The translations under genes and the position numbers were made by a program. Below are positions 93 through 35,305 of a DNA stretch of 38,630 nucleotides, piece by piece. The stretch comes from Pelagibacterales bacterium SAG-MED13 (lineage in GTDB: Bacteria > Pseudomonadota > Alphaproteobacteria > Pelagibacterales > Pelagibacteraceae), in assembly GCA_014654165.1 (NCBI GenBank), contig JACWDK010000011.1, forward strand, positions 1 through 38,630. The letters run 5' to 3'. Position 1 is the first letter of the stretch; each line of letters begins with the position of its first letter. A model generated the notes under the pieces. It did no database searches. It saw only the letters and a list, made by a program, of their open reading frames with translations, and was not told the DNA's origin.

Positions 93-1196
93 ATGGATGA
101 TGTTGTTATAATTGGTGGAGGAATAATTGGTACTGCAACTGCTTTTTTTTTATCAAAAGAAGGTAGAAAAGTTAAAGTTATAGAGAGAGACCCAACTTAT
201 AAAACTGCTTCTTTTCCATTGTCTTTAGGTGGATTTAGAAGACAGTTTTTTCAAACTGAAAATATTCTACTTGGAAAATTTGCAAGAGAATTTATTTTTC
301 AAATTCCTAATTTACTTAAAACAAAAAAAAATCCAAACCCAACAGCGAGCATGGTTACTAATGGTTACTTGTTAATGTTTGGACCTGAACATGCTGAAGA
401 ACAGTACAAAGCTCTTGAGAATCATAAAGCTTGTGAGGCTGGAACAAAAAATATTGAAGGAACTGAATTATCTAAATTTTTTCCATATATTAATAGTGAT
501 GGTATAGAAACTGCCACATTCACTGATAATCAAAGTGAGGGTTGGATAGATCCATTTATGTTTCATGGTGCATTAAAAAGTAAAGCTATTGAACAAGGTG
601 CAGAATTTATAAAAGGAGAGGTCAAAACACTCTCAGAAATTAAAGCAAAGACAATCATTTCTGCTGCAGGATGTTGGACTAAAGAGCTATTAGATGATAT
701 TCCAGTTGAACCTCAAAAGCACACTGTTTTTAGAATTAAATGTCCAAAACATATTCCTGAAATGCCTTTAACAGGAGATTTAACGACAGGTGTGTATTGG
801 AGACCAGAGGGAAAAGAATATTTAGCTGGATCACCAAAGTCTGTTTTTGACGCAAAAGATTTAGAGCCAGCATGGGAAGATTTTGAGGAATTAGTATGGC
901 CTGCACTTGCTCAAAGAATTCCCGCTTTTGAAGAATTGAAATTAACTGGTGGATGGGCTGGCTACTATGATTGTAATAGGTTAGATAATAACGCAGTGGT
1001 TGGAAAACACCCTAAGTTTGATAATGTTTATTTAGCGACTGGTTTTACAGGAAGAGGTTTAATGCAAGCCCCAGGTATAGGTAGAGCTTTGACTGAATTG
1101 ATAACAACAGGGGCATATCAATCAATTGATATATCTAATATGGCAGTTGAAAGAGTTTTAGGTAAAAAAGCAAGACCAGAGCCTTACGTTCTTTAA
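93..1196 (+). CDS. FAD-dependent oxidoreductase of the DAO family (FOXRED1/sarcosine-oxidase-like)
   Basis: The 367-aa protein opens with a Rossmann dinucleotide-binding motif (VVIIGGGIIGTATAFFLSKE, residues 4-23) followed by the acidic end of beta-2 (VIERD). It therefore binds FAD noncovalently, as in D-amino-acid oxidase, glycine/sarcosine oxidase and DadA. The C-terminal FAD-contact segment (ATGFTGRGLMQAPGIGRALT, about residues 312-331) and the following AYQSIDIS resemble FOXRED1-type proteins. The substrate is probably a secondary or primary amine of a small amino acid, but cannot be read from the sequence. There is no signal peptide, so it is cytoplasmic. It starts directly after the tspO stop, suggesting translational coupling, and its stop touches the convergent selO stop with no spacer. 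Family confidence is high, substrate confidence low. Confidence 0.85.
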   Translation: MDDVVIIGGGIIGTATAFFLSKEGRKVKVIERDPTYKTASFPLSLGGFRRQFFQTENILLGKFAREFIFQIPNLLKTKKNPNPTASMVTNGYLLMFGPEHAEEQYKALENHKACEAGTKNIEGTELSKFFPYINSDGIETATFTDNQSEGWIDPFMFHGALKSKAIEQGAEFIKGEVKTLSEIKAKTIISAAGCWTKELLDDIPVEPQKHTVFRIKCPKHIPEMPLTGDLTTGVYWRPEGKEYLAGSPKSVFDAKDLEPAWEDFEELVWPALAQRIPAFEELKLTGGWAGYYDCNRLDNNAVVGKHPKFDNVYLATGFTGRGLMQAPGIGRALTELITTGAYQSIDISNMAVERVLGKKARPEPYVL

Positions 1197-2651
1197 TTAA
1201 GTTCCACAAAAAGTTTGATATTTTTCATTTCGAGAAGAAGGAATTTGATATTCAATTATTTCTTTATTTTTCTTATAAGGATTTATTAAAATTTCTAACA
1301 GTTTATTAAAAGGATCAAAATTATTTTGATTTGCAGCCTTAAGCGCTTCTTCGATTTTATGGTTTCTGGGAATTACTATTGGATTTACACTTTTCATTAA
1401 TTCTAAACATTTTTCAGATGAATTGTTATTAGTCTCTAATCTTTCATTCCATTTTGATTTCCAAAATTTAAAATCTTTATCTTCATAAATTTTATTTTTT
1501 TGAATTTCATCTCCCATCAAATAGACAAAAGTATTTGTGTAGTCTATTTTTTTATTATGCATCCAAGTCAATAAGTCTAAGATTAAAAATTTATCCTTGT
1601 CATCTTTTCCAGATAAACCTAATTTATTTCTCATCATATTAAGCCATTTATTCTCATATAGTGTTTCAAAGGAATTAATTATTTCTGTGGCTGCTTTAAT
1701 AGCCTTATCTTGATTTTCATTAATTAATGGTATTAGACTTTCAGCAAACCTTGCTAAGTTCCATTTTGTTATCATAGGTTGATTACAATAGGCGTATCTT
1801 CCCATCTTATCTATAGAACTGAAAACTGTTTGAGGATCATAATAATCCATGAAAGCACATGGTCCATAATCTATAGTTTCACCGGAGATACTCATATTGT
1901 CTGTATTCATAACCCCATGAATAAAGCCAACTCTCATCCAATTAATCACTAGATCGACTTGTTTCTCTAAAACAATTTTTAAAAGTTCTAGAGCTTTATT
2001 TTTAGAGTTTAAAATTTCTGGATAATGTCTTGTAATTACGTAATCTAATAATATTTCTAACTCGTCTTTTTTATTTCTTGCTGCAATATATTGAAAAGTT
2101 CCTACTCTTATATGACTCGAGGCTACTCTTGTAAGTATCGCTCCATTCAAAGATGTTTCTCTAATTATCTCCTCACCAGTTTTAACAACTGCTAAACTTC
2201 TTGTTGTTGGAATATTCAAATAATACATTGACTCACTTATGATATATTCTCGTAACATAGGTCCCAATGCAGCTCGTCCATCACCATTTCTTGAAAATGC
2301 AGTCTTTCCAGACCCTTTCAATTGAATATCATGTCTTTTATTATTTCTTGATAAGTGCTCTCCAATTAAAACTGCTCTTCCATCTCCGAGCATTGTGAAA
2401 TGACCAAATTGGTGACCAGCATAAGCTTGAGCGATCGAATTACTATCTAATGGTAATTCATTTCCTGCAAATAAAGCAGATAACGCATCCTTATTTATAT
2501 TAGAAAAATTCAAATTAAGATCTGAGGCCAAACTGTTATTTAATATAATTATTTCAGGATTCTTTACTTTTACTGGTTTGATATTTTCTTTAAAGGAATC
2601 TGGTAATTTTGAATAAGAATTATCAAAATTCCAATTGATATTACTATTCAT
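1197..2651 (-). CDS. selO: Protein adenylyltransferase SelO (YdiU family)
   Basis: The 484-aa protein is full length for SelO/YdiU, a pseudokinase-fold enzyme that transfers AMP to Ser/Thr/Tyr of target proteins and is tied to redox homeostasis. Family hallmarks are visible: QAYAGHQFGHFTMLGDGRA (about residues 74-92), RHDIQLKGSGKTAFSRNGDG (about 106-125), and GVMNTDNMSISGETIDYGPC (about 245-264), which supplies the Asn and Asp metal/nucleotide ligands. It ends TFCGT, placing a cysteine where eukaryotic SelO carries selenocysteine, so no Sec readthrough is needed. The ATG lies 6 nt after the msrA stop, so msrA-selO form an operon of oxidative-stress functions. Its stop abuts that of the + strand oxidoreductase. 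Confidence 0.93.
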   Translation of the reverse strand: MNSNINWNFDNSYSKLPDSFKENIKPVKVKNPEIIILNNSLASDLNLNFSNINKDALSALFAGNELPLDSNSIAQAYAGHQFGHFTMLGDGRAVLIGEHLSRNNKRHDIQLKGSGKTAFSRNGDGRAALGPMLREYIISESMYYLNIPTTRSLAVVKTGEEIIRETSLNGAILTRVASSHIRVGTFQYIAARNKKDELEILLDYVITRHYPEILNSKNKALELLKIVLEKQVDLVINWMRVGFIHGVMNTDNMSISGETIDYGPCAFMDYYDPQTVFSSIDKMGRYAYCNQPMITKWNLARFAESLIPLINENQDKAIKAATEIINSFETLYENKWLNMMRNKLGLSGKDDKDKFLILDLLTWMHNKKIDYTNTFVYLMGDEIQKNKIYEDKDFKFWKSKWNERLETNNNSSEKCLELMKSVNPIVIPRNHKIEEALKAANQNNFDPFNKLLEILINPYKKNKEIIEYQIPSSRNEKYQTFCGT

Positions 2652-2657
2652 AAAATA

Positions 2658-3014
2658 TTATTTGTTCCAAATTTCTTTCAAAGTTTCCTCTCTCTTGCAA
2701 GCCTTTTTATAGCTCAAATAATTTTGAAAATACATTTTATAAAAATTTTGATGACGATTTTCTGCTTTATAAAATATTTCAAACTCCTTAAGGTATGTTA
2801 CTACTTTTTTGTTAAATTTTTTTTCTAATTCTTTAATGTACTTTTTTATTAATTTCTCTTCATCATCATTTTGATAAAATGCAACAGATCTATAACTATA
2901 ACCTTTGTCACAAAATTGACCATAAGCATCAAATGGATCTATGTTTATCCAGAAATTTTTAAGAAGCTCCTCATAAGATATAATCCTTTTATCATAGATA
3001 ATTTCAACGGCTTC
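2658..3014 (-). pseudogene. msrA: Peptide-methionine (S)-S-oxide reductase MsrA, C-terminal fragment
   Basis: A 118-codon frame reads EAVEIIYDKRIISYEELLKN, then FWINIDPFDAYGQFCDKGYS and YRSVAFY, ending at the TAA at 2658-2660. This is the MsrA core after its E-A-V-E strand: ISYEELL..FW..DP, the D..GQFCD.G variant and the YRSAIFY-type substrate pocket. The N-terminal half with the catalytic GCFWC-type cysteine is missing. At 3014-3020 the frame runs without a break into tspO sequence, the junction of the 43-bp inverted repeat. The shared TTTG (possibly TACTTTG) would be the microhomology, since Tyr-Phe-Glu-Ala is also plausible for MsrA. As it stands the fragment has no start codon or active site. 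In the real genome it is probably an intact msrA upstream of selO. Confidence 0.85.
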
Positions 3015-3447
3015 AAAGTAAATAAGGAATCATAAGATAATAGCTTATAGAATTGACAAGTTTAAACCTTAGAATAAGAATAATAATCAAAGAAATTAGA
3101 ATTATTAATACTACTAATGCTAATAAGATTTGATGTAGTCCAAAAAAAACAATACTCCAAGTTGTATTGAATACTATATGTATAAAATAAATATATATGG
3201 TTTTAATATCTCTGTTTTTACTATGCCAAAAAAACCAAATAGCTAAAGTCATCATCAGATATAAAGTTGTCCATACAGGTGCAAAAATCCAATCTGGAGG
3301 ATTATAATTCGACTTAACTAATTCGGAATACCAAGGTTCTTTCAAGCTAATTGTCACTGATCCACCAATAAATGATGCAGAATACGTAATAATTAAAAAT
3401 AGAATGAATGAAAAAAATTTATTTTTAAGCATATAAGTATTATACAT
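3013..3447 (-). CDS. tspO: TspO/MBR family protein, truncated at its C-terminus by a junction
   Basis: TspO is a five-helix membrane protein that binds porphyrins and cholesterol-like ligands and modulates tetrapyrrole and oxygen responses in Proteobacteria. Visible family features are KEPWYSELVKSNYNPPDWIF (about residues 37-56) and APVWTTLYLMMTLAIW (about 57-72), the loop-1/helix-2 signature with its tryptophans, then FNTTWSIVFFGLHQ in helix 3. The frame gives 144 aa and ends in a TGA made by fusion to msrA. The missing last helix is at 44-92 on the other strand. The start may be the sixth codon (MLKNKFF), which leaves a slightly larger gap to the divergent SDR; as annotated only 9 bp separate the two starts. 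Function is confident at family level; whether this truncated form exists in the cell is doubtful. Confidence 0.85.
   Translation of the reverse strand: MYNTYMLKNKFFSFILFLIITYSASFIGGSVTISLKEPWYSELVKSNYNPPDWIFAPVWTTLYLMMTLAIWFFWHSKNRDIKTIYIYFIHIVFNTTWSIVFFGLHQILLALVVLIILISLIIILILRFKLVNSISYYLMIPYLL
3014..3056. repeat. Right copy of the 43-bp inverted repeat, at the tspO/msrA junction
   Basis: This is the exact reverse complement of bases 1-43. On the right it is continuous with the tspO N-terminal coding region; on the left it ends where msrA coding sequence begins. The tspO frame hits a stop two codons after the edge (TGA at 3013-3015) that is created by the junction itself. Confidence 0.95.
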
Positions 3448-3456
3448 CAGTATAAG

Positions 3457-4218
3457 ATGAATAAAAAAACAATTTGGATCACTGGTGGTAGTACAGGTAT
3501 AGGAAAAGCTTTAGCAATTAAATTTGCAAATAAAGGGTGGAATGTAGCAATATCAGCAAGAAGAGAAAACCTTCTTCAAGAAATTGCAGATAAACATGAG
3601 AACATAAGTTCATTTCCACTGGATGTTACTAATAAAGAAAAATGTAAAGAAGTTTTTAACGATATACAAAATAAATTTGAAAATATTGATATTTGCTTTT
3701 TCTCTACAGGAACATGGAATCCAAAAAAAGAAAAGGATATAGACATTGAGCAAATAGAGGATGTATTTAGAATAAATTTTTTTGGGACATTAAATAGTAT
3801 AAAAAGTGTAGAAAAATATTTTAAAAATAAAAAAAGTGGAACAATAACTATAGTTTCATCTATTGCGGGCTATAGAGGACTTCCAAATTCAACAGGCTAT
3901 GGACCATCAAAATCCGCATTAAATAACTTAGCAGAAAGTTTATATTTTGATTTTAAAAAATCAAATGTGAGAATTTGCTTAGTAAGTCCGGGATTTATTA
4001 AAACACCAATGACTGATAAAAATGATTTCAAAATGCCTTTTTTAAAGACCACTGAATATGCGGCTGAAAAAATTTATGATGGTTTAATAAATAATAAAGA
4101 TTTTGAAATTCATTTTCCAAAATCACTTACTTTAATACTTAAAATACTTAGTTTTTTACCAAGTAAAATCTATTTTAGTTTGATAGGAAGAATGACAAAA
4201 TATCAAAAGAATAATTAA
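3457..4218 (+). CDS. Short-chain dehydrogenase/reductase (SDR)
   Basis: This 253-aa classical SDR has the cofactor motif TGGSTGIG (residues 9-16, NADP(H)-type by the Arg pair at about 35-36). The catalytic Ser lies in IVSSIAGYRG (S135), with Y148 and K152 in the YGPSK motif, and it ends the core with LVSPGFIKTPMT. It most resembles SDRs near DUF1365, Cfa-like and FAD genes in Proteobacteria, where an acyl or keto lipid intermediate is the likely substrate; that role is inferred only from context. It converges on the DUF3833 lipoprotein with a 4-nt overlap of the stop codons, and is divergent from tspO across about 9 bp. A C-terminal hydrophobic stretch (LTLILKILSFLPSKIYFSLI) suggests membrane association. 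Confidence 0.88.
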   Translation: MNKKTIWITGGSTGIGKALAIKFANKGWNVAISARRENLLQEIADKHENISSFPLDVTNKEKCKEVFNDIQNKFENIDICFFSTGTWNPKKEKDIDIEQIEDVFRINFFGTLNSIKSVEKYFKNKKSGTITIVSSIAGYRGLPNSTGYGPSKSALNNLAESLYFDFKKSNVRICLVSPGFIKTPMTDKNDFKMPFLKTTEYAAEKIYDGLINNKDFEIHFPKSLTLILKILSFLPSKIYFSLIGRMTKYQKNN

Positions 4219-4763
4219 TCCTTAACAAATACAACTGTCAATTCAGCAACTTTAAATCCAAACTTAGTCATGGTTGCTCTATTAATAGCTACACGTTCAT
4301 CTTGTTTAAAAATCCAATCATCAAATGTAATTTTCATCTCTTTACCTTTAACAGGTACTAATAATACATATTCAAACTTAAAAGCTGATCCATAAGAATA
4401 ACCTTTTGCTTTTCCTACAACATCCCCTGCAGTACCTTCATAGTTATTTTCGTCAATTTTAGTAATTTGCCATTGTCTAGTTTGAACTTCTCCGTCATCC
4501 CAATTAAATTTTTCATCAAGTATCAATTGTTTTCCATCCCATTTTCCATCTAAGTCAGCAGAAAACTGTCTAGTAACTTTTCCAGATCTATTTTGAAGCA
4601 CACCCCATGCCTTAACATTTCCTGTCAAATATTCTTCAATTATTAGTCTTGGTTCTTTATTCTTAAAATCTTCAGGTTTCATAGAACTATTTTTTGAACA
4701 ACTTGTAATTAAGATTATTGAAATTATCAATAAAATTGATCTAAATAATTTAATGTAATGCAT
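4215..4763 (-). CDS. DUF3833 family lipoprotein
   Basis: The 182-aa protein begins with a lipoprotein signal peptide: basic start, hydrophobic stretch, then ITSC with the lipobox cysteine at about residue 22. The mature part carries the DUF3833 pattern: F.G....WG..Q.R.G......F....G.WDG..L.L.E.F.+.DG....R.W, seen here as VKAWGVLQNRSGKVTRQFSA (residues 50-69) and GKWDGKQLILDEKFNWDDGE (residues 73-92). The fold is probably lipocalin-like, so it may carry or modify a lipid at the membrane face. It is the last gene of the run FAD protein - DUF1365 - Cfa-like - DUF3833, 12 nt after the Cfa-like gene. DUF3833 proteins recur next to these genes in other Proteobacteria. Biochemical function is unknown. 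Confidence 0.88.
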   Translation of the reverse strand: MHYIKLFRSILLIISIILITSCSKNSSMKPEDFKNKEPRLIIEEYLTGNVKAWGVLQNRSGKVTRQFSADLDGKWDGKQLILDEKFNWDDGEVQTRQWQITKIDENNYEGTAGDVVGKAKGYSYGSAFKFEYVLLVPVKGKEMKITFDDWIFKQDERVAINRATMTKFGFKVAELTVVFVKD

Positions 4764-4775
4764 AGTTTTGTTTCC

Positions 4776-5954
4776 TTATTTATTTTGAATTGAAAATTGT
4801 ATTAAATCGATATTTTTTGATTTGAATCCAGCCTCACAGTAACATAGGTAAAATTCCCACATTCTCTTAAAAGTTAAATCAAACCCCTGATTTTTTATTT
4901 GATCCCATTTTTTATTAAATTCGTCTCTCCATATAGCAAGAGTATCGGAGTAATGATCGGCATAAGACTCGTAAGATTTAATTGTTAAACCGTTGTCAGA
5001 AACATACTTATTAATGCTATTTTTATTTGGTAAAAACCCTCCAGGAAAAATATATTTTTGAATAAAATCTTCTTTATTTTTATATCTATCAAATAAAGCA
5101 TCATCGATTGTAATAGCTTGGATAGCTGCACTACCATTATTTGATAAATTATTTTTAATAGTCTTGAAATAGCTTTCTAAATAATTTTGACCAACTGCCT
5201 CTATCATTTCAATCGATGCTATAGAATTATATTTATCTTTTAGATCTCTATAATCTTTGATTTCAATGTTAACTTTTTCATTTAAACCACATTTGTGAAT
5301 TCTCTCTTTAGCATATTCAAATTGTTTTTTGGAAATTGTAATGCAATCAAGTTTGACATCGTATTTTTTTCCAAGATATTCAGCAAATCCACCCCATCCA
5401 CATCCAATTTCTAAAACTTTATCTCCACTATTAGGTCTAATCAGATCTATTAATTTTTGATATTTATTATTTTGTGCATCTGATAAATCTTTATTTTTTC
5501 CGTCAAAGATCGCACTAGAATATGTGAGTGTTTTATCAAGCCAAAGAGAGAAAAACTCATTACCTAGGTCATAGTGTTTAGCTATATTTTCTTTACTTCT
5601 ATTTTTAGTATTTTTAATCAAAATATTTTTAAAAAAGTTAATAAATGGTAAATCAAGTAAACCTGAAAATTTGTGAATCTGTTTTATATTTCTTGCTGTT
5701 AATTCTATAAGGTCTGATAAATTTTTAGTTTGAAATTCGTTTCTCATATAAGACTCTGCAAGTCCTACACTTCCACCTTTAATAAGATTAAAAGTAAAGT
5801 TTGATTTTTTTATATCAAGATATGCCTTTAGTGGATCTTTTGGATTACCAAATTTTAATAATTCACCACTATGGTTAGTAATCTCTAAATATCCGAATTC
5901 AATATTTCTTAAAGTATTAAATACAATTTTGTCTGAAATTTTAAATAAATTCAT
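4776..5954 (-). CDS. Cyclopropane-fatty-acyl-phospholipid synthase-like SAM methyltransferase (UfaM candidate)
   Basis: The 392-aa protein has the Cfa/mycolic-acid methyltransferase layout. An N-terminal lipid-binding region is followed by AKHYDLGNEFFSLWLDKTLT (about residues 125-144), the SAM motif LEIGCGWGGF (181-190), the acidic SIEMIEAVG segment (about 247-255), and a C-terminal CYCEAGF. Such enzymes add a methylene or methyl group from SAM to the double bond of a phospholipid acyl chain in the inner membrane. Paralogues beside DUF1365 and FAD genes make methyl-branched unsaturated chains, the first step toward furan fatty acids in Rhodobacter, rather than cyclopropanes. Context favours that here. 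Its start overlaps the DUF1365 stop by one base, so the genes are translationally coupled. Family certain, exact product inferred. Confidence 0.9.
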   Translation of the reverse strand: MNLFKISDKIVFNTLRNIEFGYLEITNHSGELLKFGNPKDPLKAYLDIKKSNFTFNLIKGGSVGLAESYMRNEFQTKNLSDLIELTARNIKQIHKFSGLLDLPFINFFKNILIKNTKNRSKENIAKHYDLGNEFFSLWLDKTLTYSSAIFDGKNKDLSDAQNNKYQKLIDLIRPNSGDKVLEIGCGWGGFAEYLGKKYDVKLDCITISKKQFEYAKERIHKCGLNEKVNIEIKDYRDLKDKYNSIASIEMIEAVGQNYLESYFKTIKNNLSNNGSAAIQAITIDDALFDRYKNKEDFIQKYIFPGGFLPNKNSINKYVSDNGLTIKSYESYADHYSDTLAIWRDEFNKKWDQIKNQGFDLTFKRMWEFYLCYCEAGFKSKNIDLIQFSIQNK

Positions 5955-6718
5955 TAACTTTCAAAAGTGATATTGTTCTTAATTTTAAATTTTTTTTTAA
6001 CAAATTTTATTCCTTTTGCCCATAATTTAAACGCTTCAAAATGTATCGCTGAAATTATCTTAAAAGTCATTAAAGGGTGTTTTAAATATGAATTCATCAA
6101 ATTCATACTTGTCAAATCAGACCTTATGCCATCCTGAGATGCAAAAAGAATTTTACCTTCCTTATCGTATTGCTCAATAATAACCGACAATTTTTCTGCT
6201 GGATTTAACACCCTAAAAAAATAATTACAATCCATCTCAATGAATGGTGATACATGAAATTTTTTTGAACAATTATTTTGAATTAAATTATTTTCATTTT
6301 CTACCCTAAATACATATGTATGTTGCTCTCCAAATGTATTTTTAACCTCATATAAAATAGAAATAAGTCTTTCATCTTTATCGTAAATAAAAAAAACACT
6401 AAGAGGATTAAAGACATAACCAAGTATTCTTGGATAACACAAAAGTTTTATTTCTATATTTTCCGTAATAATATTGTTGGCTTTTAAATTTTGATTCACC
6501 CAATCAACTAAAGATGATCCATCACGTGCTCCATGATCTTCTTCATAAAAACTAATTAGATTGAACTTATTTAAAGAAAAAAAATTTATTTTTTTATCAA
6601 TTTCTTCAAGTTCTGATAAATTAATTAATAAAGAAAATACTTTATATTTGAAATAATGCTCTTTAGGTTTAAATCGTTTATGAATTACAGTTCCGTTATA
6701 TATGTAAGAATTAATCAT
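5954..6718 (-). CDS. DUF1365 family protein (candidate lipid-modification enzyme)
   Basis: The 254-aa protein matches DUF1365 throughout: VIHKRFKPKEHYFKYKVFSL near the start (residues 11-30), the FYEEDHGARDGSSLVDWVNQ block (residues 57-76), LLCYPRILGYVFNPLSVFFI (about 88-107), then YEVKNTFGEQHTYVF. The H..RF.P..H.F.Y and DHG..DG motifs offer His/Asp residues that could bind metal. DUF1365 genes nearly always sit next to the FAD amine-oxidase-like gene and a Cfa-like gene, as here: it overlaps the FAD gene by 8 nt and the Cfa-like gene by 1 nt. In furan fatty acid producing alphaproteobacteria, genes of this neighbourhood encode the desaturase and oxygen-inserting steps (UfaD, UfaO). Which name fits this protein cannot be settled from sequence alone. 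Confidence 0.88.
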   Translation of the reverse strand: MINSYIYNGTVIHKRFKPKEHYFKYKVFSLLINLSELEEIDKKINFFSLNKFNLISFYEEDHGARDGSSLVDWVNQNLKANNIITENIEIKLLCYPRILGYVFNPLSVFFIYDKDERLISILYEVKNTFGEQHTYVFRVENENNLIQNNCSKKFHVSPFIEMDCNYFFRVLNPAEKLSVIIEQYDKEGKILFASQDGIRSDLTSMNLMNSYLKHPLMTFKIISAIHFEAFKLWAKGIKFVKKKFKIKNNITFES

Positions 6719-7949
6719 TAAGGTTTTTCAGCATTTCAATGGATGATTTTATTCCATCTTCATGAAATCCGTAACCAAAATAACTTCCACAAAAAAGCAA
6801 ATCTTTTTGATTTTGTAACTTAACAAGCTCAGATTGAGTATCTAACGCTTTTTGATCATAATAAGGATGTGTGAATGTAACTTTTTTTAATACTTTTGTT
6901 TTATCAATGTCAAAATAAGGATTTAAAGTTAAAAAAATATTTTTATCACACTTTAAGTTTTGGAGTAAGTTCAGCCAGTATGTAATTGAATTTTTTTTAG
7001 GATCTTTATCATCAATTGAAGAGTTCCATGAACACCATGCCTTTTTATTTTTTGGCATCGCTCGCTGATCTGTATGAATGTAGGCTGTATTTTCTTTATA
7101 ACTAAAATTTGATAAGATATTTTTCTCATCTTCTGTAGGGTTTTCAATCAATTTTAAAGCTTCATCAGCATGAGTTGCTAATATTACTTTATCATAATCA
7201 AAGAATTCATTTTCTCCACCATAATACAAATTTAGACCATTAGACTTTCTTTTAATTTTTGTAATTTTATAATTCTTAAAATGTTCTCCACTCACTTTAG
7301 AAATAATCTTATTAACATAAGATCTGCTTCTGTTTGTAACTGTGTACCATTGAGGCCTATTTTTTAACTTAAACAGTCCATGATTTTTAAAAAACTTCAA
7401 AAAAAAATCAATTGGCATGTTACTTGCCTCATATGGAGGCATCGACCAAATTGCAGATACCATTGGTATAATGTGATAATTAATAAATGTTTGAGATAAT
7501 TTATTAATTTTTAAATATTCACCTAAAGTTTTTTTTTTATCTGAAATAGATATTTGATCACTTTTTTTGTAAAATCTAATTATATCAAAAAACATCTTTA
7601 AAAATTCAAAATTAAATAGATTCAATTTATTTGAAAAAATACCACCCAAACCTTTGCCACAATACTCAAAATTTGTATTATCTACTGAAACAGAAAAAGA
7701 CATATTACTTTTTTCAATTTGAATATCATTTTCCTTAAAAAAATTAATTAAATTTGGATATGTTTTATAATTAAAAACGATAAAACCTACATCAACTGAT
7801 ATTTTTTTTGATTCAAAAGTAAGATCAATTGTATATGAGTGTCCACCAAAATGATCATCTTTTTCAAAAATATCTACATGATGTTTTTTAGATAAATAAT
7901 AGGCTGCACTTAATCCTGAAATACCTGATCCAACCACTGCAATTTTCAT
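6711..7949 (-). CDS. NAD(P)/FAD-dependent amine-oxidase-like protein (fatty acid desaturase candidate)
   Basis: The 412-aa flavoprotein starts with KIAVVGSGISGLSAAYYLSK (residues 2-21), the dinucleotide-binding motif, and the FEKDDHFGGHS segment (about 29-39) that follows in the amine oxidase/phytoene-desaturase superfamily. VDVGFIVFNYKTYPNLINFF (residues 53-72) and the C-terminal CGSYFGYGFHEDGIKSSIEM are typical of the subfamily paired with DUF1365. These proteins are not monoamine oxidases; genetics in Rhodobacter tie close relatives to unsaturating a methylated acyl chain. The start codon lies 6 nt after the gcvP stop, with no terminator or room for a promoter, so it should be co-transcribed with glycine cleavage. 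It overlaps the DUF1365 gene by 8 nt. Confidence 0.88.
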   Translation of the reverse strand: MKIAVVGSGISGLSAAYYLSKKHHVDIFEKDDHFGGHSYTIDLTFESKKISVDVGFIVFNYKTYPNLINFFKENDIQIEKSNMSFSVSVDNTNFEYCGKGLGGIFSNKLNLFNFEFLKMFFDIIRFYKKSDQISISDKKKTLGEYLKINKLSQTFINYHIIPMVSAIWSMPPYEASNMPIDFFLKFFKNHGLFKLKNRPQWYTVTNRSRSYVNKIISKVSGEHFKNYKITKIKRKSNGLNLYYGGENEFFDYDKVILATHADEALKLIENPTEDEKNILSNFSYKENTAYIHTDQRAMPKNKKAWCSWNSSIDDKDPKKNSITYWLNLLQNLKCDKNIFLTLNPYFDIDKTKVLKKVTFTHPYYDQKALDTQSELVKLQNQKDLLFCGSYFGYGFHEDGIKSSIEMLKNLND

Positions 7950-7955
7950 TAATGG

Positions 7956-10826
7956 TTACGCTGCATCTTCTTTAAATTCATCCATGCTAGGACAGGTACA
8001 AAAGATATTTTTATCTCCATAAACATTATCTACTCTTGCTACTGGAGGCCAAAATTTATTAGCTCTTAAAAATTTAGCTGGATAAGCTGCTTCTTGTCTG
8101 GAGTATTTGTGTTCCCAGTTATCTGAAGCAAGCTCAGAGTCCGTATGAGGCGCATTTTTAATTGGATTATCAATTTTATCAAATTCACCTAATTTAATCT
8201 TATCTATCTCTCGCTTAATTGTAATTAAAGTGTCACAAAATCTATCTATTTCTGATAAGCTTTCACTCTCTGTTGGCTCGATCATCATAGTGCCAGCTAC
8301 AGGCCATGACATTGTTGGTGCATGAAATCCAAAATCAATTAATCTTTTTGCTATATCTTCTTCGGTTACACCTGTTTCTGATTTAATTGTTCTAATATCA
8401 ATAATACATTCATGAGCAACATTTCCTTGTGATCCTTTATATAAAATTGGGAAATAATTTTTCAGTCTATGTGCAATATAGTTTGCATTAAGTATTGCAA
8501 CTTGAGAAGCAAGCTTTAATCCCTCTGATCCCATCATTTTAATGTACATCCAAGAGATCGATAGAATACTTGAACTACCCCAAGGGGCTGCTGAAACTGC
8601 TCCAATTCCAGTTGTTGGTCCACAATCTTCAATAACTGGATGATTAGGAAGATAAACTTGTAAATGTCTTTTACATGCAATAGGTCCCATTCCAGGACCT
8701 CCTCCACCATGTGGAATACAGAATGTTTTGTGTAAGTTTATATGACAAACATCTGGACCAAAATTTCCAGGTTTAGCGATTCCAACTAATGCATTTAAAT
8801 TAGCTCCATCCATGTATACCTGACCACCATGCTTATGAACTAATTCACAAATATCAGTTATTTTTTCCTCAAATACTCCATGAGTAGATGGGTAAGTTAC
8901 CATTAATGCTCCAAGGTTTTCAGAATGTTGCTCTGCTTTATTCTTCAAATCGTCAAAATCAACATTTCCCTCTTTATCACAATTAACAACTACTACTTTC
9001 ATTCCAGCCATCTGTGCGCTTGCTGGATTAGTACCATGTGCTGAACTTGGAATTAAACATATATTACGATTACCTTCGCCTCTATCTAAATGATACTTTC
9101 GAATAACCATTAAACCTGCATATTCTCCTTGAGCACCTGCGTTAGGTTGTAGGGAAACACCTGAAAAACCAGTTATAGAACGTAACCAATTTTTTAGATC
9201 AGTAAATAGATCTCTAAACCCTTCCATTTGTTCAATTGGAACAAACGGATGCGGTTCTGCAAATTCTTTCCAAGAAATTGGGATCATTTCAGCAGCAGCA
9301 TTTAACTTCATTGTACATGAGCCAAGTGCGATCATTGTTCTATTCAATGCTATATCTTTATCTTCTAATCTTTTTAAATATCTAAGCATTTCAGTCTCGG
9401 AATGATATGAGTTGAAAACCGGATGTTCTAAATATTTTGAAGTTCTTGATAACTTTTTTGGAAGATTGGGTAAACTAACTGATGGATCTTCTTTTTTGAT
9501 TGATTCTGCTGCATTAAAAATTTTTAATAGTTGATTTACTCTATACACATTTTTTCTCTCATCAAATGAAACAGCAAGCATTTCAGAATTTACTTTTCGT
9601 ATATTTACTCTTTGATTCAGGGCATTTTTATAAATTTGATCAGTCTTGTCTTTGGTAATAATCGTAACAGTATCAAAAAAATCATTCGAATAAAGTTCAT
9701 ATCCAGACTGTTTTATTTTATCAGCAAAACTTTTTGCTAATTGAGACACTCTTTCAGAAATATTTTTAATTCCATCTGGTCCATGATAGATAGCATATGC
9801 TGCAGAAACAATTGCTAATAAAGCTTGAGCAGTACAAATATTACTTGTCGCCTTATCTCTTCTGATATGTTGCTCTCTAGTTTGTAAGGATAATCTATAT
9901 GCCTTGTTACCATGTCTATCAACTGATACACCAACAATTCTTCCAGGCATTGATCTTTTATATTCGTCTTTTGTTGCAAAAAAAGCTGCGTGTGGACCTC
10001 CATATCCCATTGGAATTCCAAATCGTTGAGAGCTTCCAACAGCTATATCGGCACCAAGCTCTCTTGGTGTTTTTAGTTTTGCTAATGCCAATAGATCACA
10101 AGCTAATATTGACTTCCCATTTTTTTTATGAATTTTACTAATTGCTTCACTTGGGTCCTTAATATCTCCTAAAGTTCCAGGATATTGTAAAATTCCACAA
10201 ACTAAATCTTCCTTTAACTGGTCTAAAACTTCATCTTCTTTACCAACTAAAACTTTTAATCCCATTGGTTCAGCTCTTGTTTGAATTACATTTATAGTTT
10301 GAGGATGACAATCTTCAGAAACAAAAACTAAATTACTATCCTTTTTATTTAATCTATGACTTAGACCCATAGCCTCTGCTGCTGCTGTACCTTCATCTAA
10401 TAAAGAGGCATTAGCAATATCCATCCCTGTGAAGTCAACGATCATTTGTTGAAAGTTCAGTAACATCTCAAGTCTACCTTGAGCTACCTCAGGCTGATAA
10501 GGTGTATATGAAGTATACCAACCTGGATTTTCTAATATATTTCTTAAGATTACATAGGGTGTATATGTTCCATAATAACCCATACCAATAAAATTTGAGT
10601 AAACTTGATTTTTTTTAGACATTACTCTTAATTTTCTTAAAGCCTCATACTCCGAGTTTGACTCACCAATATTTAGTTCGCCTTTAAATTTTATTTTTTC
10701 TGGAACGGTATTGTCAATTAAGTCATCTAATGACTTATAATTTAATTCTTTTAACATTTTTGATTGGTCTTCTTTAGAAGGTCCAATGTGTCTTTTTAAA
10801 AAATCTTTTTCTGAATTTGGTAACAT
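7956..10826 (-). CDS. gcvP: Glycine dehydrogenase (aminomethyl-transferring), P-protein
   Basis: This 956-aa single-chain P-protein has the usual length. It decarboxylates glycine with pyridoxal phosphate and passes the aminomethyl group to the lipoyl arm of GcvH. The PLP-binding lysine is K700 in INLHKTFCIPHGGGGPGMGP. The N-terminal half carries the paralogous fold (RHIGPS near the start, YTPYQPEVAQGRLE at about 110, DLLALAKLKTPRELGADI), consistent with a fused alpha-beta P-protein rather than GcvPA/GcvPB. It is third in gcvT-gcvH-gcvP, its start overlapping the gcvH stop by one base, and would be controlled by the glycine riboswitch before gcvT. Transcription probably continues into the FAD/DUF1365/Cfa genes downstream. 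Confidence 0.98.
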   Translation of the reverse strand: MLPNSEKDFLKRHIGPSKEDQSKMLKELNYKSLDDLIDNTVPEKIKFKGELNIGESNSEYEALRKLRVMSKKNQVYSNFIGMGYYGTYTPYVILRNILENPGWYTSYTPYQPEVAQGRLEMLLNFQQMIVDFTGMDIANASLLDEGTAAAEAMGLSHRLNKKDSNLVFVSEDCHPQTINVIQTRAEPMGLKVLVGKEDEVLDQLKEDLVCGILQYPGTLGDIKDPSEAISKIHKKNGKSILACDLLALAKLKTPRELGADIAVGSSQRFGIPMGYGGPHAAFFATKDEYKRSMPGRIVGVSVDRHGNKAYRLSLQTREQHIRRDKATSNICTAQALLAIVSAAYAIYHGPDGIKNISERVSQLAKSFADKIKQSGYELYSNDFFDTVTIITKDKTDQIYKNALNQRVNIRKVNSEMLAVSFDERKNVYRVNQLLKIFNAAESIKKEDPSVSLPNLPKKLSRTSKYLEHPVFNSYHSETEMLRYLKRLEDKDIALNRTMIALGSCTMKLNAAAEMIPISWKEFAEPHPFVPIEQMEGFRDLFTDLKNWLRSITGFSGVSLQPNAGAQGEYAGLMVIRKYHLDRGEGNRNICLIPSSAHGTNPASAQMAGMKVVVVNCDKEGNVDFDDLKNKAEQHSENLGALMVTYPSTHGVFEEKITDICELVHKHGGQVYMDGANLNALVGIAKPGNFGPDVCHINLHKTFCIPHGGGGPGMGPIACKRHLQVYLPNHPVIEDCGPTTGIGAVSAAPWGSSSILSISWMYIKMMGSEGLKLASQVAILNANYIAHRLKNYFPILYKGSQGNVAHECIIDIRTIKSETGVTEEDIAKRLIDFGFHAPTMSWPVAGTMMIEPTESESLSEIDRFCDTLITIKREIDKIKLGEFDKIDNPIKNAPHTDSELASDNWEHKYSRQEAAYPAKFLRANKFWPPVARVDNVYGDKNIFCTCPSMDEFKEDAA

Positions 10827-11206
10827 TATGCTGAAGTCTCCTTTGCAAATTTATCATAATCGTCTTTATTCATTAAAGTATCCATTTCTGATTGATCTTT
10901 TATTTTAAGTTTAAAAAACCATGCTGAGTCCTCTGGATCCTGATTAATCTTTGATGGATCATCTATAATCTCTTGATTGGTTTCTACTACTTCCCCACTT
11001 ACTGGAGTATATACATCACTGGCAGCTTTCGTTGACTCAACAACACCAGCAGTTCCATCTTTTTCTACATTAGAACCTTTTTCTGGAAGTTCTGCAAAAA
11101 CTATATCACCTAACATCTCTGTTGCATGTTTTGTAATTCCAATTGTTGCTACATCTCCCTCTAATTTAATCCACTCATGTTCTTTTGAATATTTTACTTC
11201 ACTCAT
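10826..11206 (-). CDS. gcvH: Glycine cleavage system H protein
   Basis: The 126-aa lipoyl carrier shuttles the aminomethyl group from GcvP to GcvT and electrons to dihydrolipoamide dehydrogenase. The lipoylated lysine is K60 in [14 protein letters not shown], preceded by the hairpin-forming GIT.HA...[11 protein letters not shown] segment (about residues 23-42). The length is normal for the family and there is no signal peptide. It overlaps gcvT by 4 nt (ATGA) and gcvP by 1 nt, so the three subunits are made from one message. No L-protein (lpd) gene is in the window; it would be shared with the 2-oxoacid dehydrogenases elsewhere. Confidence 0.97.
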
Positions 11207-12309
11207 TTTGTTGCCCCTTTCACGTAACTTTTTTTATAAAACGGTAATCCACAAATATTTGCTGGATGTTTTTTTCCTCTTACTTCTAAGAAAACTTTTG
11301 TATCTTTTTTTGAAAATTCATTTTCTATATAGCCCATTGCTACAGGTCCATTTACACTTGGTCCAAACGTACCACTTGTAATTTCTCCGATATGAACATC
11401 TGATTGATTAAATATCTTTGTTTTTTCTCTAGCAATTATTCTTCCCTCAGGTTTAATTCCAACTCTAATTTTACTAACACCATTATTTAATTGTTTAATG
11501 ATTATATCAGAGCCAATAAAATCTCCCTTGGATATTCTTTCTTTTGAAATTGCCCATTTTAAATTTGCTTCCACTGGAGTTTTGTCTTTATCAAGATCAT
11601 GGCCATATAAACATAAACCAGCTTCCAATCTCAAAGTATCCCTCGCTCCTAAACCTATTAATTTGGATCCTTTATTGATCAATTCTCTGGTTAATTTATC
11701 TACAAAATCATTTGCAATCGATATCTCAAAACCGTCTTCCCCTGTATACCCAGATCGAGTAATATAAACTTTGTGATCTTGGAATGAAAACCAGTTTCCT
11801 GACATAAAATTTAGATCTTTTACTCCAACAACAACATCGTTTAGGTTTTGAGATGATTTAGGTCCCTGAATTGCAATTAAAGATCTGTTTTCATCTAAAA
11901 CCATTTTGTGCTTTTCTTCTAGTAATTCCTTTAAAATTTTAAAATCATTGTCTTTGCATGCTGCATTAAGGATTATTAAAAAGCCTTCATTTGTTTTTGT
12001 TATAATTAAATCATCGTGTATCCCAGCATCTTTATCCATTAAGAAGCTATATTTTGAATGATTTAGTTTTAAATTTTTCAAATCTAAAGGGAAGATTTTT
12101 TCTAAATCTTTGATTAGGTCTTCACCACCATAAATAAATAATTGACCCATATGAGAAACGTCAAAAATACCAGAATGATTCCTTGTGAATTTATGTTCCT
12201 CTACTATACCTTCAGAATATTGAATTGGCATCTGATAACCTGCAAATTCAACAAATTTTGCATTGCTTTCTTGATGTAATTGGTACAGCGATGTTTTTTT
12301 TATATTCAT
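11203..12309 (-). CDS. gcvT: Aminomethyltransferase, glycine cleavage T protein
   Basis: The 368-aa T protein moves the one-carbon unit from aminomethyl-lipoyl GcvH to tetrahydrofolate, releasing ammonia and 5,10-methylene-THF. Visible family blocks are [20 protein letters not shown] (residues 8-27), [13 protein letters not shown] (about 49-61), [11 protein letters not shown] (about 186-196, with the folate-binding Asp), and [20 protein letters not shown] (about 221-240). [20 protein letters not shown] lies near the C-terminus. The ATG immediately follows the closing strand of the second glycine aptamer, and the only Shine-Dalgarno-like run (AAAGAG) overlaps that strand, so initiation should depend on the leader fold. 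First gene of a probable seven-gene unit ending with the DUF3833 lipoprotein. Confidence 0.97.
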
Positions 12310-12468
12310 ATTAACTCTTTGTACCCATCTGTATATTTGCCTGAGAGTTTTGCTCCTTCGGCGAGAATTAAATCTCTTTCCAGAGTTAATATGTTACGGT
12401 CCATTTTGCCTGAGAGATTCCTGGGTGGTTGCTCCTTCGGCGCTACGATATTCTGTAGTCTCTCCCGT
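12310..12468 (-). ncRNA. Tandem glycine riboswitch (two aptamers) in the gcvT leader
   Basis: Two glycine aptamers are visible on the - strand. Aptamer I (12396-12468) has an ACGG/CCGT closing stem, GAGAGA/TCTCTC, a CTAC/GTAG side stem and the core GCCGAAGGAGCAA followed by CTCAGGCAAAATGGACC. After a 5-nt linker, aptamer II (12310-12390) has the same core GCCGAAGGAGCAA and CTCTCAGGCAAATATACAGA. Its closing helix is a perfect 9 bp, ATTAACTCT with AGAGTTAAT, whose last base touches the gcvT ATG. No poly-U terminator lies between aptamer and gene, so control is likely at translation. Glycine riboswitches on gcv genes are known in SAR11 and many other bacteria. Confidence 0.96.
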
Positions 12469-12475
12469 AAAAAGA

Positions 12476-12504
12476 ATAATCTTACATGTATGTAAAAAAG
12501 TCAA
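12476..12504 (-). promoter_or_regulatory. Candidate sigma-70 promoter for the riboswitch-gcv unit
   Basis: On the - strand TTGACT (12499-12504) is followed after 17 nt by GATTAT (12476-12481), a good -35 and a 4/6 match to -10. Transcription would start about 7 nt further on, just before aptamer I. The -35 box overlaps the stop codon of the upstream permease gene. This is the only well-formed promoter seen for the run gcvT to the DUF3833 gene. Confidence 0.6.
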
Positions 12505-13379
12505 CCAGAAACAATTTTTTTTCGCTTATTTAAAAGTGAATAAAACTGAAGTAATACAGCAAAAAGTATAATTGCACCTCCTATTAATCCAAAGATTGAA
12601 GGTCTTTCACTTACAAAAAGAAATGCCCATATCGGACCAAGTACAGATTCTGAAAGCATAATTATTCCAACTGTAGCAGAAGGAGTTGTTCTTGCTCCAA
12701 TTGTAATAAATATAAATCCAAAACCAACTTGAAAAAAACCAGCTAGAAAACCTAAAAAAATATCATGAGGGGATATCATTATTTTAGTTGAGAGCAAAAA
12801 CCCAACTAAACATGAACAAACTCCAGCTACAAATTGAGCTGGGACCATGTCTACAGTCGGATATTTTCTTATTATTATAATTAAAATTGCAAAAACTATT
12901 GGCATTGAAAATGCTGCTAGGTTTCCAGATAACTCTCCTGGTGTGAGTGAATTTCCAACCATCAACAAAACACCTGTCATTGCTAAAATTATTGAAGTTA
13001 AAGTTGTAGAGCTTATTTTTTCTTTTAAAAAAAAATACCCAAATATTGAAAGAAATAGTATTTGAAGTGAAATTATAAAATTAGTATTTGCAACTGTCGT
13101 ATTATACATTGCAAAAACATAACCACAGAAACCAATAGATAATATTATTCCACCAAAAAATCCGGGTAAACCTGAAACGTAGAATGATTTCAAAGTTTTT
13201 CCTTTATAGCTAACAATTAAGAAAGCTAAAACTGTCAGAGAAAAAAATAAAGATCTCCAAAATAAAATTTGCCATAAAGTTGCACCCTCAAACGATTTAA
13301 CAAGTAATCCACCAAAACTTAAACTTAATGCTCCTAAGAAGATTAATAATGGGCCAGGTAAGTTTCTTATGAAAGTCAT
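12501..13379 (-). CDS. EamA/DMT-superfamily permease
   Basis: The 292-aa protein is built of about ten hydrophobic segments in two EamA repeats; for example GALSLSFGGLLVKSFEGATL and LQILFLSIFGYFFLKEKISS end the first repeat, and IGARTTPSATVGIIMLSESV with PIWAFLFVSERPS lies in the second. DMT permeases of this kind move small metabolites such as amino acids or drugs across the inner membrane; direction and substrate cannot be told from sequence. It starts one base inside the end of pxpC, so it is in the pxpB-pxpC-permease unit and may carry 5-oxoproline, glutamate or a related amino acid. It precedes the gcv promoter. Confidence 0.87.
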   Translation of the reverse strand: MTFIRNLPGPLLIFLGALSLSFGGLLVKSFEGATLWQILFWRSLFFSLTVLAFLIVSYKGKTLKSFYVSGLPGFFGGIILSIGFCGYVFAMYNTTVANTNFIISLQILFLSIFGYFFLKEKISSTTLTSIILAMTGVLLMVGNSLTPGELSGNLAAFSMPIVFAILIIIIRKYPTVDMVPAQFVAGVCSCLVGFLLSTKIMISPHDIFLGFLAGFFQVGFGFIFITIGARTTPSATVGIIMLSESVLGPIWAFLFVSERPSIFGLIGGAIILFAVLLQFYSLLNKRKKIVSG

Positions 13380-34571: not shown

Positions 34572-35186
34572 TTAATATTGTTGAGAAATAATAATTATCA
34601 TAGCTATTAAAACTAAAACACTCGCAGAGATTGTATTAATTGTTTTTGGATTTGCTTTTATCCAAACAACTAACTTTTGTGCAAGTAATGCATAACCAAT
34701 TAAAGATAGAAAATCTAAAAAGATATAAGTTGTTATCAAAATAAAAAATTGAGCAACATAATTTGCATTAAAGTCAATAAATTGTGGGAATATTAAGGGA
34801 AAAAATAACCATGCCTTGGGGCTTGTTCCTGCAACTAAAAAACCATCTTTAAAAAAAGAAAATAAACTTTTTGAAGTTGTTGTTTTTGAATTTACACTAT
34901 TTGGCGTAGATTTATAAACATCATAAGCTAAATAAAATAAATAAATAACTCCAGCCCATTTAAAAAAATTTAAAAAATTTGGATTATCAGAAAAAAAAGT
35001 TCCTAATACAAAAATAACCAAGGTTGCCTGAATAAAATTTGCTGTAATATCCCCTAATGCAGTCCATACACATTTATTAACTCCATAATTCATTGAATAT
35101 GAAATAATTACAATTCTAGGAGTGCCAGGAGTTATAAAAAGAAAAATTATGATTTGTAAAAAAAGAAAAAAATCTAAGGGGAGCAT
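34572..35186 (-). CDS. LysE/RhtB family amino acid exporter
   Basis: The 204-aa protein has six helices and the LysE hallmark near its N-terminus: FLFITPGTPRIVIISYSMNY (residues 15-34, usually TPGP....), then GVNKCVWTALGDITANFIQA (about 35-54, G...G...A.G...G). GFLVAGTSPKAWLFFPLIFP (about 114-133) is the N.L.NPKA..FF..F.PQF segment. Such proteins export basic, neutral or hydroxylated amino acids. The ATG is immediately preceded, on its own strand, by nine U and a 12-bp hairpin, so expression may be attenuated. It is 87 bp upstream of the binding-protein gene in the same direction. Confidence 0.9.
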   Translation of the reverse strand: MLPLDFFLFLQIIIFLFITPGTPRIVIISYSMNYGVNKCVWTALGDITANFIQATLVIFVLGTFFSDNPNFLNFFKWAGVIYLFYLAYDVYKSTPNSVNSKTTTSKSLFSFFKDGFLVAGTSPKAWLFFPLIFPQFIDFNANYVAQFFILITTYIFLDFLSLIGYALLAQKLVVWIKANPKTINTISASVLVLIAMIIIISQQY

Positions 35187-35244: not shown

Positions 35245-35305
35245 AGACAATATATCAGATTTAAAAAAAAATGCATTATAGATTTTTTTCAAATATAAAG
35301 GATTA

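Follow-up and report, generated by a model that had tools for sequence, protein, structure and literature searches.

Known furan fatty acid genes and SAR11 glycine riboswitches

UfaM, UfaD and UfaO are each needed for furan fatty acids in Rhodobacter sphaeroides (Lemke 2020, PMC7380195), and deletion of RSP1087, RSP1088 or RSP1089 left the fatty acids of this species unchanged (PMC7380195). The ufa genes are grouped in the genome of Rhodopseudomonas palustris (RPA2569-2571; PMC7380195) and are consecutive in Halomonas sp. YLGW01 (PMC12089945). Expression of the Halomonas ufaM in E. coli gave 11-methyl-18:1, and the Cfa of the same organism gave cyclopropane acids (PMC12089945). Furan fatty acid genes are part of the sigma-E/ChrR (ECF11) singlet-oxygen core regulon (PMC6852236). 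Furan fatty acids are thought to soak up reactive oxygen; they are found in fish and other organisms, and their marine makers are poorly known.

SAR11 bacteria are among the commonest cells of the surface ocean. A glycine riboswitch has been published at 649763-649953 of strain HTCC1062, where it precedes gcvT (SAR11_0666), the same riboswitch-gcvT pair as in the present locus. SAR11 glycine-riboswitch transcripts in situ extend mainly into gcvT (PMC5069720). SAR11_1144 is given in the SAR11 literature as a cyclopropane synthase.

Organization of the locus

The window analysed here is a 38,630-bp stretch of DNA from Pelagibacterales bacterium SAG-MED13. An initial annotation, made without database searches, had described five grouped genes at 3457-7949 as a candidate furan fatty acid set of a SAR11-like genome. 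The grouping held, as all five reading frames lie where they had been placed and the Pfam families agree. The SAR11 assignment fits as well, with an exact match in the genome to the SAR11-441R 16S probe.

Four of the five genes lie on the minus strand, where they make up the 3' end of a longer run beginning with gcvT at 12309. The order on this strand is glycine riboswitch, gcvT, gcvH, gcvP, ufaD, ufaO, ufaM and DUF3833. The riboswitch aptamer (RF00504, 12477-12387, minus strand) lies upstream of gcvT and scored 67.7 bits by cmscan against a gathering threshold of 32; a second aptamer-like stretch between it and gcvT could be seen by eye in the alignment. The open reading frames of gcvT (11203..12309), gcvH (10826..11206, overlapping gcvT by 4 bases) and gcvP (7956..10826) follow on the minus strand; gcvT was named by reading the sequence and by conserved synteny, and gcvH by synteny. 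The gcvP stop codon lies 6 bases before the ufaD candidate (6711..7949, minus strand), which encodes a 412-aa FAD amine-oxidase-like protein (Pfam NAD_binding_8, 3e-16; Amino_oxidase, 3e-14). An 8-base overlap leads into the ufaO candidate (5954..6718, minus strand; 254 aa; DUF1365, Pfam 7e-77), which is followed by the ufaM candidate (4776..5954, minus strand; 392 aa; Pfam CMAS, 1e-83), by trees and active-site columns very likely a UfaM-type, SAM-dependent methylase of fatty acyl chains. An accessory DUF3833 lipoprotein-like gene (4215..4763, minus strand; Pfam 7e-62) ends the run, and the gaps from gcvP to DUF3833 are +6, -8, -1 and +12 bases. The fifth gene, an accessory SDR oxidoreductase (3457..4218, plus strand; PF00106, 7e-44), is convergent with the run. 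By the aptamer and the tight same-strand spacing, ufaD, ufaO, ufaM and DUF3833 are predicted to belong to a glycine-riboswitch operon; co-transcription and glycine response are inferred from sequence, and promoters within coding sequence are not excluded.

Beyond the SDR end of the cassette lies a shortened tspO (3013..3447, minus strand; Pfam TspO). The MsrA neighbour named in the initial annotation could not be upheld as an intact gene: only a C-terminal piece is present (Pfam PMSR 50-151 of 153), the N-terminal third is missing, and its reading frame differs from that of the end of TspO.

The methylase is of the UfaM type

A total of 129 CMAS sequences were gathered, of which 93 were used in a large, quick tree and 36 in a careful one. 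The rows omitted were duplicates, partials, the weak short L270 and L271, the second CMAS of L110 and the opposite-strand weak matches in L068, L094 and L116; some linked rows were also thinned out. The UfaM anchors were Cereibacter relatives close to the tested R. sphaeroides, not the tested protein itself. Among them, C. johrii (ChrR 96%) stands in for R. sphaeroides, which was absent from the 80 loci retrieved and was not recognised in 295 family genomes (best ChrR identity 70%).

In the careful tree, the window protein and the UfaM-type set formed one clade with support of 100/100, and joining the window protein to Cfa was rejected by the AU test (p-AU 9.8e-5). The quick tree placed all 48 UfaO-linked rows used and the only full-length CMAS of three Cereibacter species in a single clade. 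Cfa position 266 was Q in 57/57 UfaM-type rows and H in 36/36 Cfa-type rows. Compared with E. coli Cfa, the window methylase carries H266 to Q, H240 to A and C139 to S, while both C139 and H266, bicarbonate-site residues of E. coli Cfa, are present in all 36 Cfa-type rows. The window protein was 38.6% identical to C. johrii UfaM, and a separate Cfa-type gene (L001) is located elsewhere in the same genome. Identity as a cyclopropane synthase was rejected by the tree, the AU test and the active-site residues. The protein is very likely a UfaM-type methylase, with its catalysis inferred.

UfaD, UfaO and the accessory genes

Full-length homologues of both UfaD and UfaO are present in the window; their enzyme activity is inferred. 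The window ufaD product was 35% identical to the C. johrii homologue located near ChrR, and it keeps every strictly invariant residue in an alignment of 137 sequences. Its nearest solved relative is LkcE (2.5e-29). The ufaO product was 32% identical to its C. johrii homologue and likewise keeps all strictly invariant residues; H13, R15, Y135, K152, V156-F159 and Y166 are common to 148/148 sequences. Frames of 500 aa or more were excluded from the residue counts of both proteins. No solved relative of UfaO was found by sequence search, which gave two chance matches (E >= 1.5). Its structure model is a beta-barrel (pLDDT 88), and the best solved matches in the fold search were nitrobindin-like barrels at Z 7.4 (rmsd 4.1, 133 aligned), below the caution level of 8, with a Foldseek query TM of only about 0.3. 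No claim on a cofactor is made from these fold matches.

UfaD and UfaO homologues of C. johrii lie near ChrR, together with SDR and DUF3833 genes. The window DUF3833 protein (31% identical to that of C. johrii) and SDR (30%) are counterparts of these genes of the Cereibacter ufaDO cluster; their equivalences to RSP1088 and RSP1087, respectively, rest on gene order. The Cereibacter methylase lies outside the ufaDO neighbourhood and adjoins a photolyase gene, and the three-gene cluster of the window is therefore closer to that of Rhodopseudomonas or Halomonas.

Conservation of the set

UfaO and UfaD were each found in 109/147 sampled SAR11-family genomes, the same 109 for both; UfaD had internal stops in two of them (G001 and G002). 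Within loci selected for holding UfaO, UfaD, UfaO and CMAS were contiguous in 20/20 from the SAR11 family, and across the class UfaD adjoined UfaO in 58/59 and UfaO adjoined CMAS in 51/59. The contiguity and adjacency argue that the grouping is not due to chance.

UfaO was missing from 38/147 family genomes, eight of which were examined. Five of these also had no gcvP, and gcvP was cut by a contig end in two; in one of these two (G027), a contig also begins with a UfaM-type gene. In UfaO-less G042 (4% contamination), one gcvP is followed directly by a DAO gene and a second ends at the contig end. For most of the eight, the absence probably reflects an assembly gap.

Separate origins of the SAR11 I/II-type and III-type sets are no more than a possibility: the two did not come together in a joint UfaD+UfaO+UfaM tree (53 rows kept; 19 loci dropped as redundant or fused reading frames), although forcing them together was not rejected (p-AU 0.39). 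No similar DNA was found in the phage records searched.

The gcvP-ufaD join and the glycine riboswitch

The join of gcvP to ufaD was present in 37 of 42 distinct SAR11-family genomes inspected and in 16/20 loci across seven genera; where it is present, ufaD starts 2-18 bases after the gcvP match ends. The RF00504 aptamer was detected in 10/10 SAR11 loci scanned (the window and 9/9 others). The joined genomes include G026, G035 and G078, which we take to be HTCC1062, HTCC7211 and HIMB5, respectively; G040 is taken to be IMCC9063. In the genome taken to be HTCC1062, ufaD starts at 654309, about 4.4 kb after the published riboswitch. This is the length expected of gcvTHP and is consistent with these genes lying between.

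Five genomes were exceptions. Four, probably of subclade III, have the order photolyase-ufaD-ufaO-ufaM, and in three probable subclade III genomes gcvTHP is followed directly by a TspO-like gene (one of three Pfam-checked). The fifth, G105, belongs to the same genus and has no gcvP on its 3,032-base contig; the 257 bases 5' of its ufaD read as the end of the transporter gene normally found before the riboswitch and gcvT. Either gcvTHP was lost there or the contig was misjoined; both are possible.

Promoter-like sites were not commoner in the region than in shuffles (35 vs 48.9). Some matches lie on the minus strand inside gcvP, and an internal promoter is not excluded. Terminator-like stems numbered 4 against 2.1 expected, including two weak minus-strand ones inside gcvP and ufaO. 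None of the other bacteria examined showed the ufa set placed directly behind gcvTHP and a glycine riboswitch. The open-access literature searched held no link between ufa genes and the glycine operon, and its sections bearing on the riboswitch name gcvT or gcvTHP alone.

Sigma factors

Eleven single-contig SAR11-family genomes each encode exactly two Sigma70_r2 proteins, of RpoD and RpoH size, and exactly two were also found in the source genome (86% complete). A search for ChrR in three SAR11-family genomes (G000, G003 and G009) and in 20 SAR11 loci gave no match. A ChrR-like gene beside a third sigma gene was present in the genome taken to be HIMB59. With only two sigma-70-family factors in each of these SAR11 genomes, sigma-E control as in Rhodobacter appears to have been lost. 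It is likely that the ufa genes, apparently without this control, joined the glycine cleavage operon; co-transcription is inferred.

These results bear on the remaining claims of the initial annotation. Its candidate furan fatty acid set is supported by full-length homologues of UfaM, UfaD and UfaO, with the lipid product inferred. It had proposed that grouping of the Cfa-like protein with true cyclopropane synthases would refute the idea; this was checked, and neither trees nor residues showed such grouping. Its statement that control must differ or lie elsewhere held, with no extra sigma factors and with a glycine-riboswitch run that it had missed. The claim of a Rhodobacter-like neighbourhood held only in part, as the Cereibacter methylase is not in it. 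Use against reactive oxygen in the sunlit ocean remains a possibility, inferred and without supporting SAR11 data.

Proposed explanation and alternatives

We propose that the genes from 7949 to 4776 are the SAR11 ufaD, ufaO and ufaM and that their products would turn acyl chains of phospholipids into monomethyl furan fatty acids. With SAM, UfaM would convert cis-vaccenate, if this organism has it, to 11Me-12t-18:1, UfaD would turn this into a conjugated diene, and UfaO would insert oxygen derived from O2 and close the furan ring. The SAR11 lineages of the window would have lost the sigma-E/ChrR and photolyase setting, and the ufa genes would be read from the gcvTHP glycine-riboswitch promoter as its 3' part; the furan lipid set is therefore proposed to rise with glycine. 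The gene identities rest on family, tree and active-site columns, and the conserved order and spacing, the riboswitch and the absence of extra sigma factors are also observed. The combined explanation, a SAR11 furan fatty acid set under the gcvTHP glycine riboswitch, is considered likely; its chemistry, transcription as one unit, response to glycine and protective role are inferred. No SAR11 lipid data were found in the literature searched.

A possible alternative is that the pathway products are made but the position behind gcvP has no regulatory meaning, ufaD having its own promoter inside gcvP. Short spacers are widespread in SAR11, and streamlined genomes pack genes. The minus-strand promoter-like matches within gcvP, the location of the ufa genes elsewhere in probable subclade III and the G105 ufaD without a preceding gcvP also favour this reading. 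Against it stand the retention of the join at such short spacing across the seven genera and the promoter-like sites being no commoner than in shuffles. That the Cfa-like protein is merely a standard cyclopropane synthase with functionally unrelated neighbours is very unlikely. The best NCBIfam matches are indeed Cfa models, although far under the cut-off (262.7 vs 600), and the tree, AU test, active-site columns and separate Cfa-type gene all oppose it.

The set might also stop before furans and supply 11-methyl, methyl-diene or other chains as a membrane-fluidity system, which appears unlikely. In its favour, the window proteins share only 32-39% identity with their C. johrii counterparts (the comparison did not include sequences from R. 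sphaeroides or R. palustris), so that the chain or double-bond position may differ. The pelagic roseobacter RCA has C19:1 among its major chains (PMC7779409), which by inference would fit 11-methyl-18:1. However, UfaO, the furan-closing protein, occurs in the same genomes as UfaD, and the window UfaO retains its invariant residues.

If SAR11 does make furan acids, a very large share of surface-ocean bacterial membrane would carry a built-in scavenger of reactive oxygen, and lipid surveys would gain a new target. The gcvTHP-ufaDOM join, if true, would be a clear case, in genomes left with two sigma factors, of a stress-lipid pathway that exchanged its dedicated sigma factor for control by a metabolite riboswitch. 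A bolder reading holds that most SAR11 cells make furan fatty acids on a glycine signal, the riboswitch having replaced the singlet-oxygen sigma circuit during streamlining; this is inferred, and we lean slightly against it. Were it true, glycine from photorespiring phytoplankton and glycine betaine would be a daylight proxy setting the membrane antioxidant content, and the same glycine would also feed one-carbon units.

Comparison with known systems

The window methylase shares the Pfam family CMAS with E. coli Cfa (NP_416178.1) and retains E239 and Y317, but has S, A and Q in place of C139, H240 and H266. Like the window organism, Halomonas sp. YLGW01 (PMC12089945) has Cfa and UfaM in one genome, with UfaM beside ufaD and ufaO; it is, however, a gammaproteobacterium, and the sections bearing on it make no mention of a glycine operon. 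The riboswitch-gcvT unit is the same as that described among the SAR11 glycine-riboswitch units glcB and gcvT (PMC2704228, PMC5069720), whose downstream ufa genes go unmentioned in the sections bearing on it. Furan fatty acid genes are members of the sigma-E/ChrR regulon, whereas the SAR11 ufa set occurs without a third sigma factor in the genomes examined. The three enzymes are common to the window and the R. sphaeroides and R. palustris pathway (PMC7380195), and the SDR and DUF3833 accessory genes are shared with the Cereibacter cluster, but the window cluster has no MFS transporter and, in SAR11, the ufa genes lie instead behind gcvTHP, putatively under its glycine riboswitch.

Gene content of the cluster and type of the methylase

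The source assembly is fragmentary (1.01 Mb, 49 contigs, 86% complete), and the window (38,630 bases) represents its contig C3. Pfam analysis of the reading frames revealed an SDR gene on the forward strand, followed on the complementary strand by DUF3833, CMAS/Cfa-like methylase, DUF1365, and FAD amine-oxidase-like genes; the initial annotation had claimed these five frames at 3457–7949, which held exactly, including the gene types. Its label of a SAR11-like genome was also fair, as the SAR11-441R 16S probe matched exactly in the genome itself; the same probe was found at ≤1 mismatch in 18 of 41 SAR11 family genomes. Compared with Cereibacter johrii, the stand-in for the tested R. sphaeroides, the sequence identity was 35% for UfaD (candidate gene at 6711–7949), 32% for UfaO (5954–6718), 38.6% for UfaM (4776–5954), 31% for DUF3833, and 30% for SDR. 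No MFS gene was present in the window cluster; one sits between the CMAS and DUF3833 genes of another locus, L066.

Phylogenetic analysis of 93 CMAS rows placed all 48 UfaO-linked rows used, including that of the window, on one side (SH-aLRT 100). The Cereibacter proteins fell there too, as did further copies from Rhodobacteraceae and a single unlinked copy from genome G154. The opposite side contained E. coli Cfa and the second copy of the source genome (locus L001, contig C10). A careful 36-row tree supported the UfaM clade at 100/100 and rejected a grouping of the window methylase with Cfa (p-AU 9.8e-5). In E. coli numbering, the UfaM-type rows (n = 57) revealed H266 replaced by Q (57/57), H240 by A (56/57), G236 by E (56/57), and C139 by S (46/57), while these four residues were retained in 36/36 Cfa-type rows; E239 and Y317 were retained in both types. 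The window methylase carries Q, A, E, and S at the H266, H240, G236, and C139 columns, and the C10 copy carries the Cfa set. The Cfa residues are known to hold the bicarbonate base. Because they are altered in the UfaM type, it is plausible, by inference, that a displaced base deprotonates the chain and not the new methyl group, giving an alkene instead of a ring.

The Cfa-type gene on C10 comes after a gene reading like dihydrodipicolinate synthase. No Cfa-type copy was found in seven searched genomes of probable subclade III genera. The UfaO-linked CMAS was the sole CMAS in G005, G007, G009, G012, G022, and G040, and G028, from the probable subclade III genera, had no CMAS at the cut-off used.

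The structural model of UfaO was confident (pLDDT 88), with a many-stranded sheet and helices near the C-terminus. The solved structures matching it best, at Z about 7, were a spirocyclase and barrels of the nitrobindin type, too weak a similarity for a cofactor to be named.

Proposed glycine operon and riboswitch

The genes gcvT (11203–12309), gcvH (10826–11206), gcvP (7956–10826), ufaD, ufaO, ufaM, and DUF3833 all share the complementary strand, with gaps of −4, −1, +6, −8, −1, and +12 bases. A glycine riboswitch (12387–12477, complementary strand; 67.7 bits) is located 77 bases upstream of gcvT, and a glycine aptamer could be detected in 9/9 further SAR11 loci scanned. A second glycine-aptamer-like stretch at about 12330–12386 (complementary strand), conserved in other SAR11 loci, points to a tandem riboswitch; the Rfam scan reported the first stretch alone. 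Elsewhere in the window, an rhtB sRNA (RF01814; 85 bits) was observed at 35178–35260 (complementary strand), at the start of gene 34572–35186, which, judged by sequence reading alone, resembles a LysE/RhtB-type transporter.

Of the 20 family loci fetched, 16, covering seven genera, had the gcvP-ufaD join, as did 29 of 30 short loci; with eight genomes shared by the two sets, this amounts to 37 of 42 distinct genomes. Because the short loci had been taken from the top-scoring UfaO matches, probable subclade III was under-sampled among them. The five exceptions were L053, L055, L057, L059, and L012 of genome G105. In the latter (contig C18, 3,032 bases), the end of a transporter gene, the counterpart of window 12501–13379, directly precedes ufaD, and both the riboswitch and gcvTHP are missing from this junction; gcvTHP may have been lost or the contig misjoined. 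Among class-wide loci with UfaD, gcv genes were seen in 0/58 within the fetched stretch.

The join was also present in the genomes G026, G035, and G078, which we take to be those of the cultured strains HTCC1062, HTCC7211, and HIMB5. The HTCC1062 glycine riboswitch has been reported at 649763–649953, before gcvT (SAR11_0666) (PMC2704228), and ufaD of G026 occupies 654309–655550 of the riboswitch strand. Provided that G026 is HTCC1062, this is where a gcvTHP as long as the one seen here would be expected to finish. Transcripts of SAR11 glycine riboswitches in Red Sea water mainly extended into gcvT (PMC5069720).

Distribution of the cassette

UfaO was present in 109/147 family genomes, 47/53 good family genomes, and 129/241 genomes class-wide. 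UfaD gave identical family tallies in the same genomes, with internal stops interrupting it in G001 and G002. Eight UfaO-less family genomes were checked, and the absence in most of them looks like assembly gaps because gcvP was also missing in five and cut by the contig end in two. The eighth, G042, represents one apparent true loss, having one gcvP copy without the cassette and a second gcvP at a contig end. On its contig C8 (L284), gcvP is directly followed by the DAO gene (counterpart of window 93–1196), without ufa cassette, SelO, or TspO between.

In three photolyase-type genomes, G005, G009, and G040, gcvTHP lies elsewhere in the genome, with a TspO-like gene (checked with Pfam in one of them) coming after gcvP. 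We take G005 to be LSUCC0530 and G040 to be IMCC9063, both of subclade III. Since tspO of the window is just beyond the cassette, the cassette occupies what is the gcvP-tspO gap in these genomes. At 2650–3447 of the window (complementary strand), tspO ends at 144 aa and runs into a piece of MsrA that is read in a different frame and is without its N-terminal third (PMSR 50–151 of 153); either a deletion or an assembly join is possible at this junction. In a HIMB5-like locus (L044), the TspO-like frame is 160 aa long and the DAO gene comes next.

Proposed working and rival explanation

In the working that we regard as most likely, glycine would open the riboswitch, and gcvTHP and ufaDOM would be read together as one unit, for which no RNA data are available. 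UfaM, then UfaD, then UfaO would act on phospholipid chains; no lipid data are available, and the vaccenate supply is assumed. Two untested ideas may account for the use of glycine: it may track photorespiration and the use of glycine betaine, and through them daylight and phytoplankton; alternatively, glycine cleavage, which supplies methyl groups, may be coupled to UfaM, which uses them.

The plain rival is gene packing, where the place behind gcvP has no regulatory meaning. The exception in G105 weighs one way and the coordinate agreement in HTCC1062 the other.

Comparison with known systems

In R. sphaeroides, vaccenate chains are converted to furan fatty acid by UfaM (RSP2144), UfaD (RSP1091), and UfaO (RSP1090, DUF1365), deletions of RSP1087, 1088, or 1089 leave fatty acids unaltered, and in R. 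palustris the three ufa genes are RPA2569–2571 (PMC7380195). Halomonas genes expressed in E. coli produced 11-methyl-18:1 from the UfaM gene and cyclopropane acids from the Cfa gene (PMC12089945). The anchor search began with the solved R. sphaeroides ChrR (2Z2S) and led to C. johrii, C. azotoformans, and C. changlensis. The C. johrii ChrR was 96% identical to it, and the gene line-up was SDR, DUF3833, UfaO, UfaD, and ChrR. The record searched for each of the three species (chromosome 1 only, 3.1 Mb, in C. azotoformans) yielded a single full-length CMAS protein, and a photolyase adjoins its gene in C. johrii and C. azotoformans. RSP2144 is known to sit beside phrA, which matches this place.

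A photolyase directly precedes ufaD in L053, L055, L057, and L059 and in 22/59 class loci; Pfam confirmation was limited to those of L053 and L118. In two loci of SAR11 genus g4 (L051 and L052), a sequence 7–8 kb from ufaD weakly resembles photolyase (28%, E about 1e-12). ChrR occurred within the fetched stretch in 27/59 class loci compared to 0/20 SAR11 loci. G171, which we take to be HIMB59, has photolyase-ufaD and a ChrR-like gene adjoining a third sigma gene, and in each of 11 single-contig SAR11-family genomes the Sigma70_r2 proteins numbered exactly two, with the sizes of RpoD and RpoH. A single origin of the I/II and III sets within SAR11 received a p-AU of 0.39, which does not decide between one origin and separate origins. 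As an interpretation of these locus comparisons, we propose a series from sigma-E/ChrR with photolyase, through photolyase alone, to the glycine operon.
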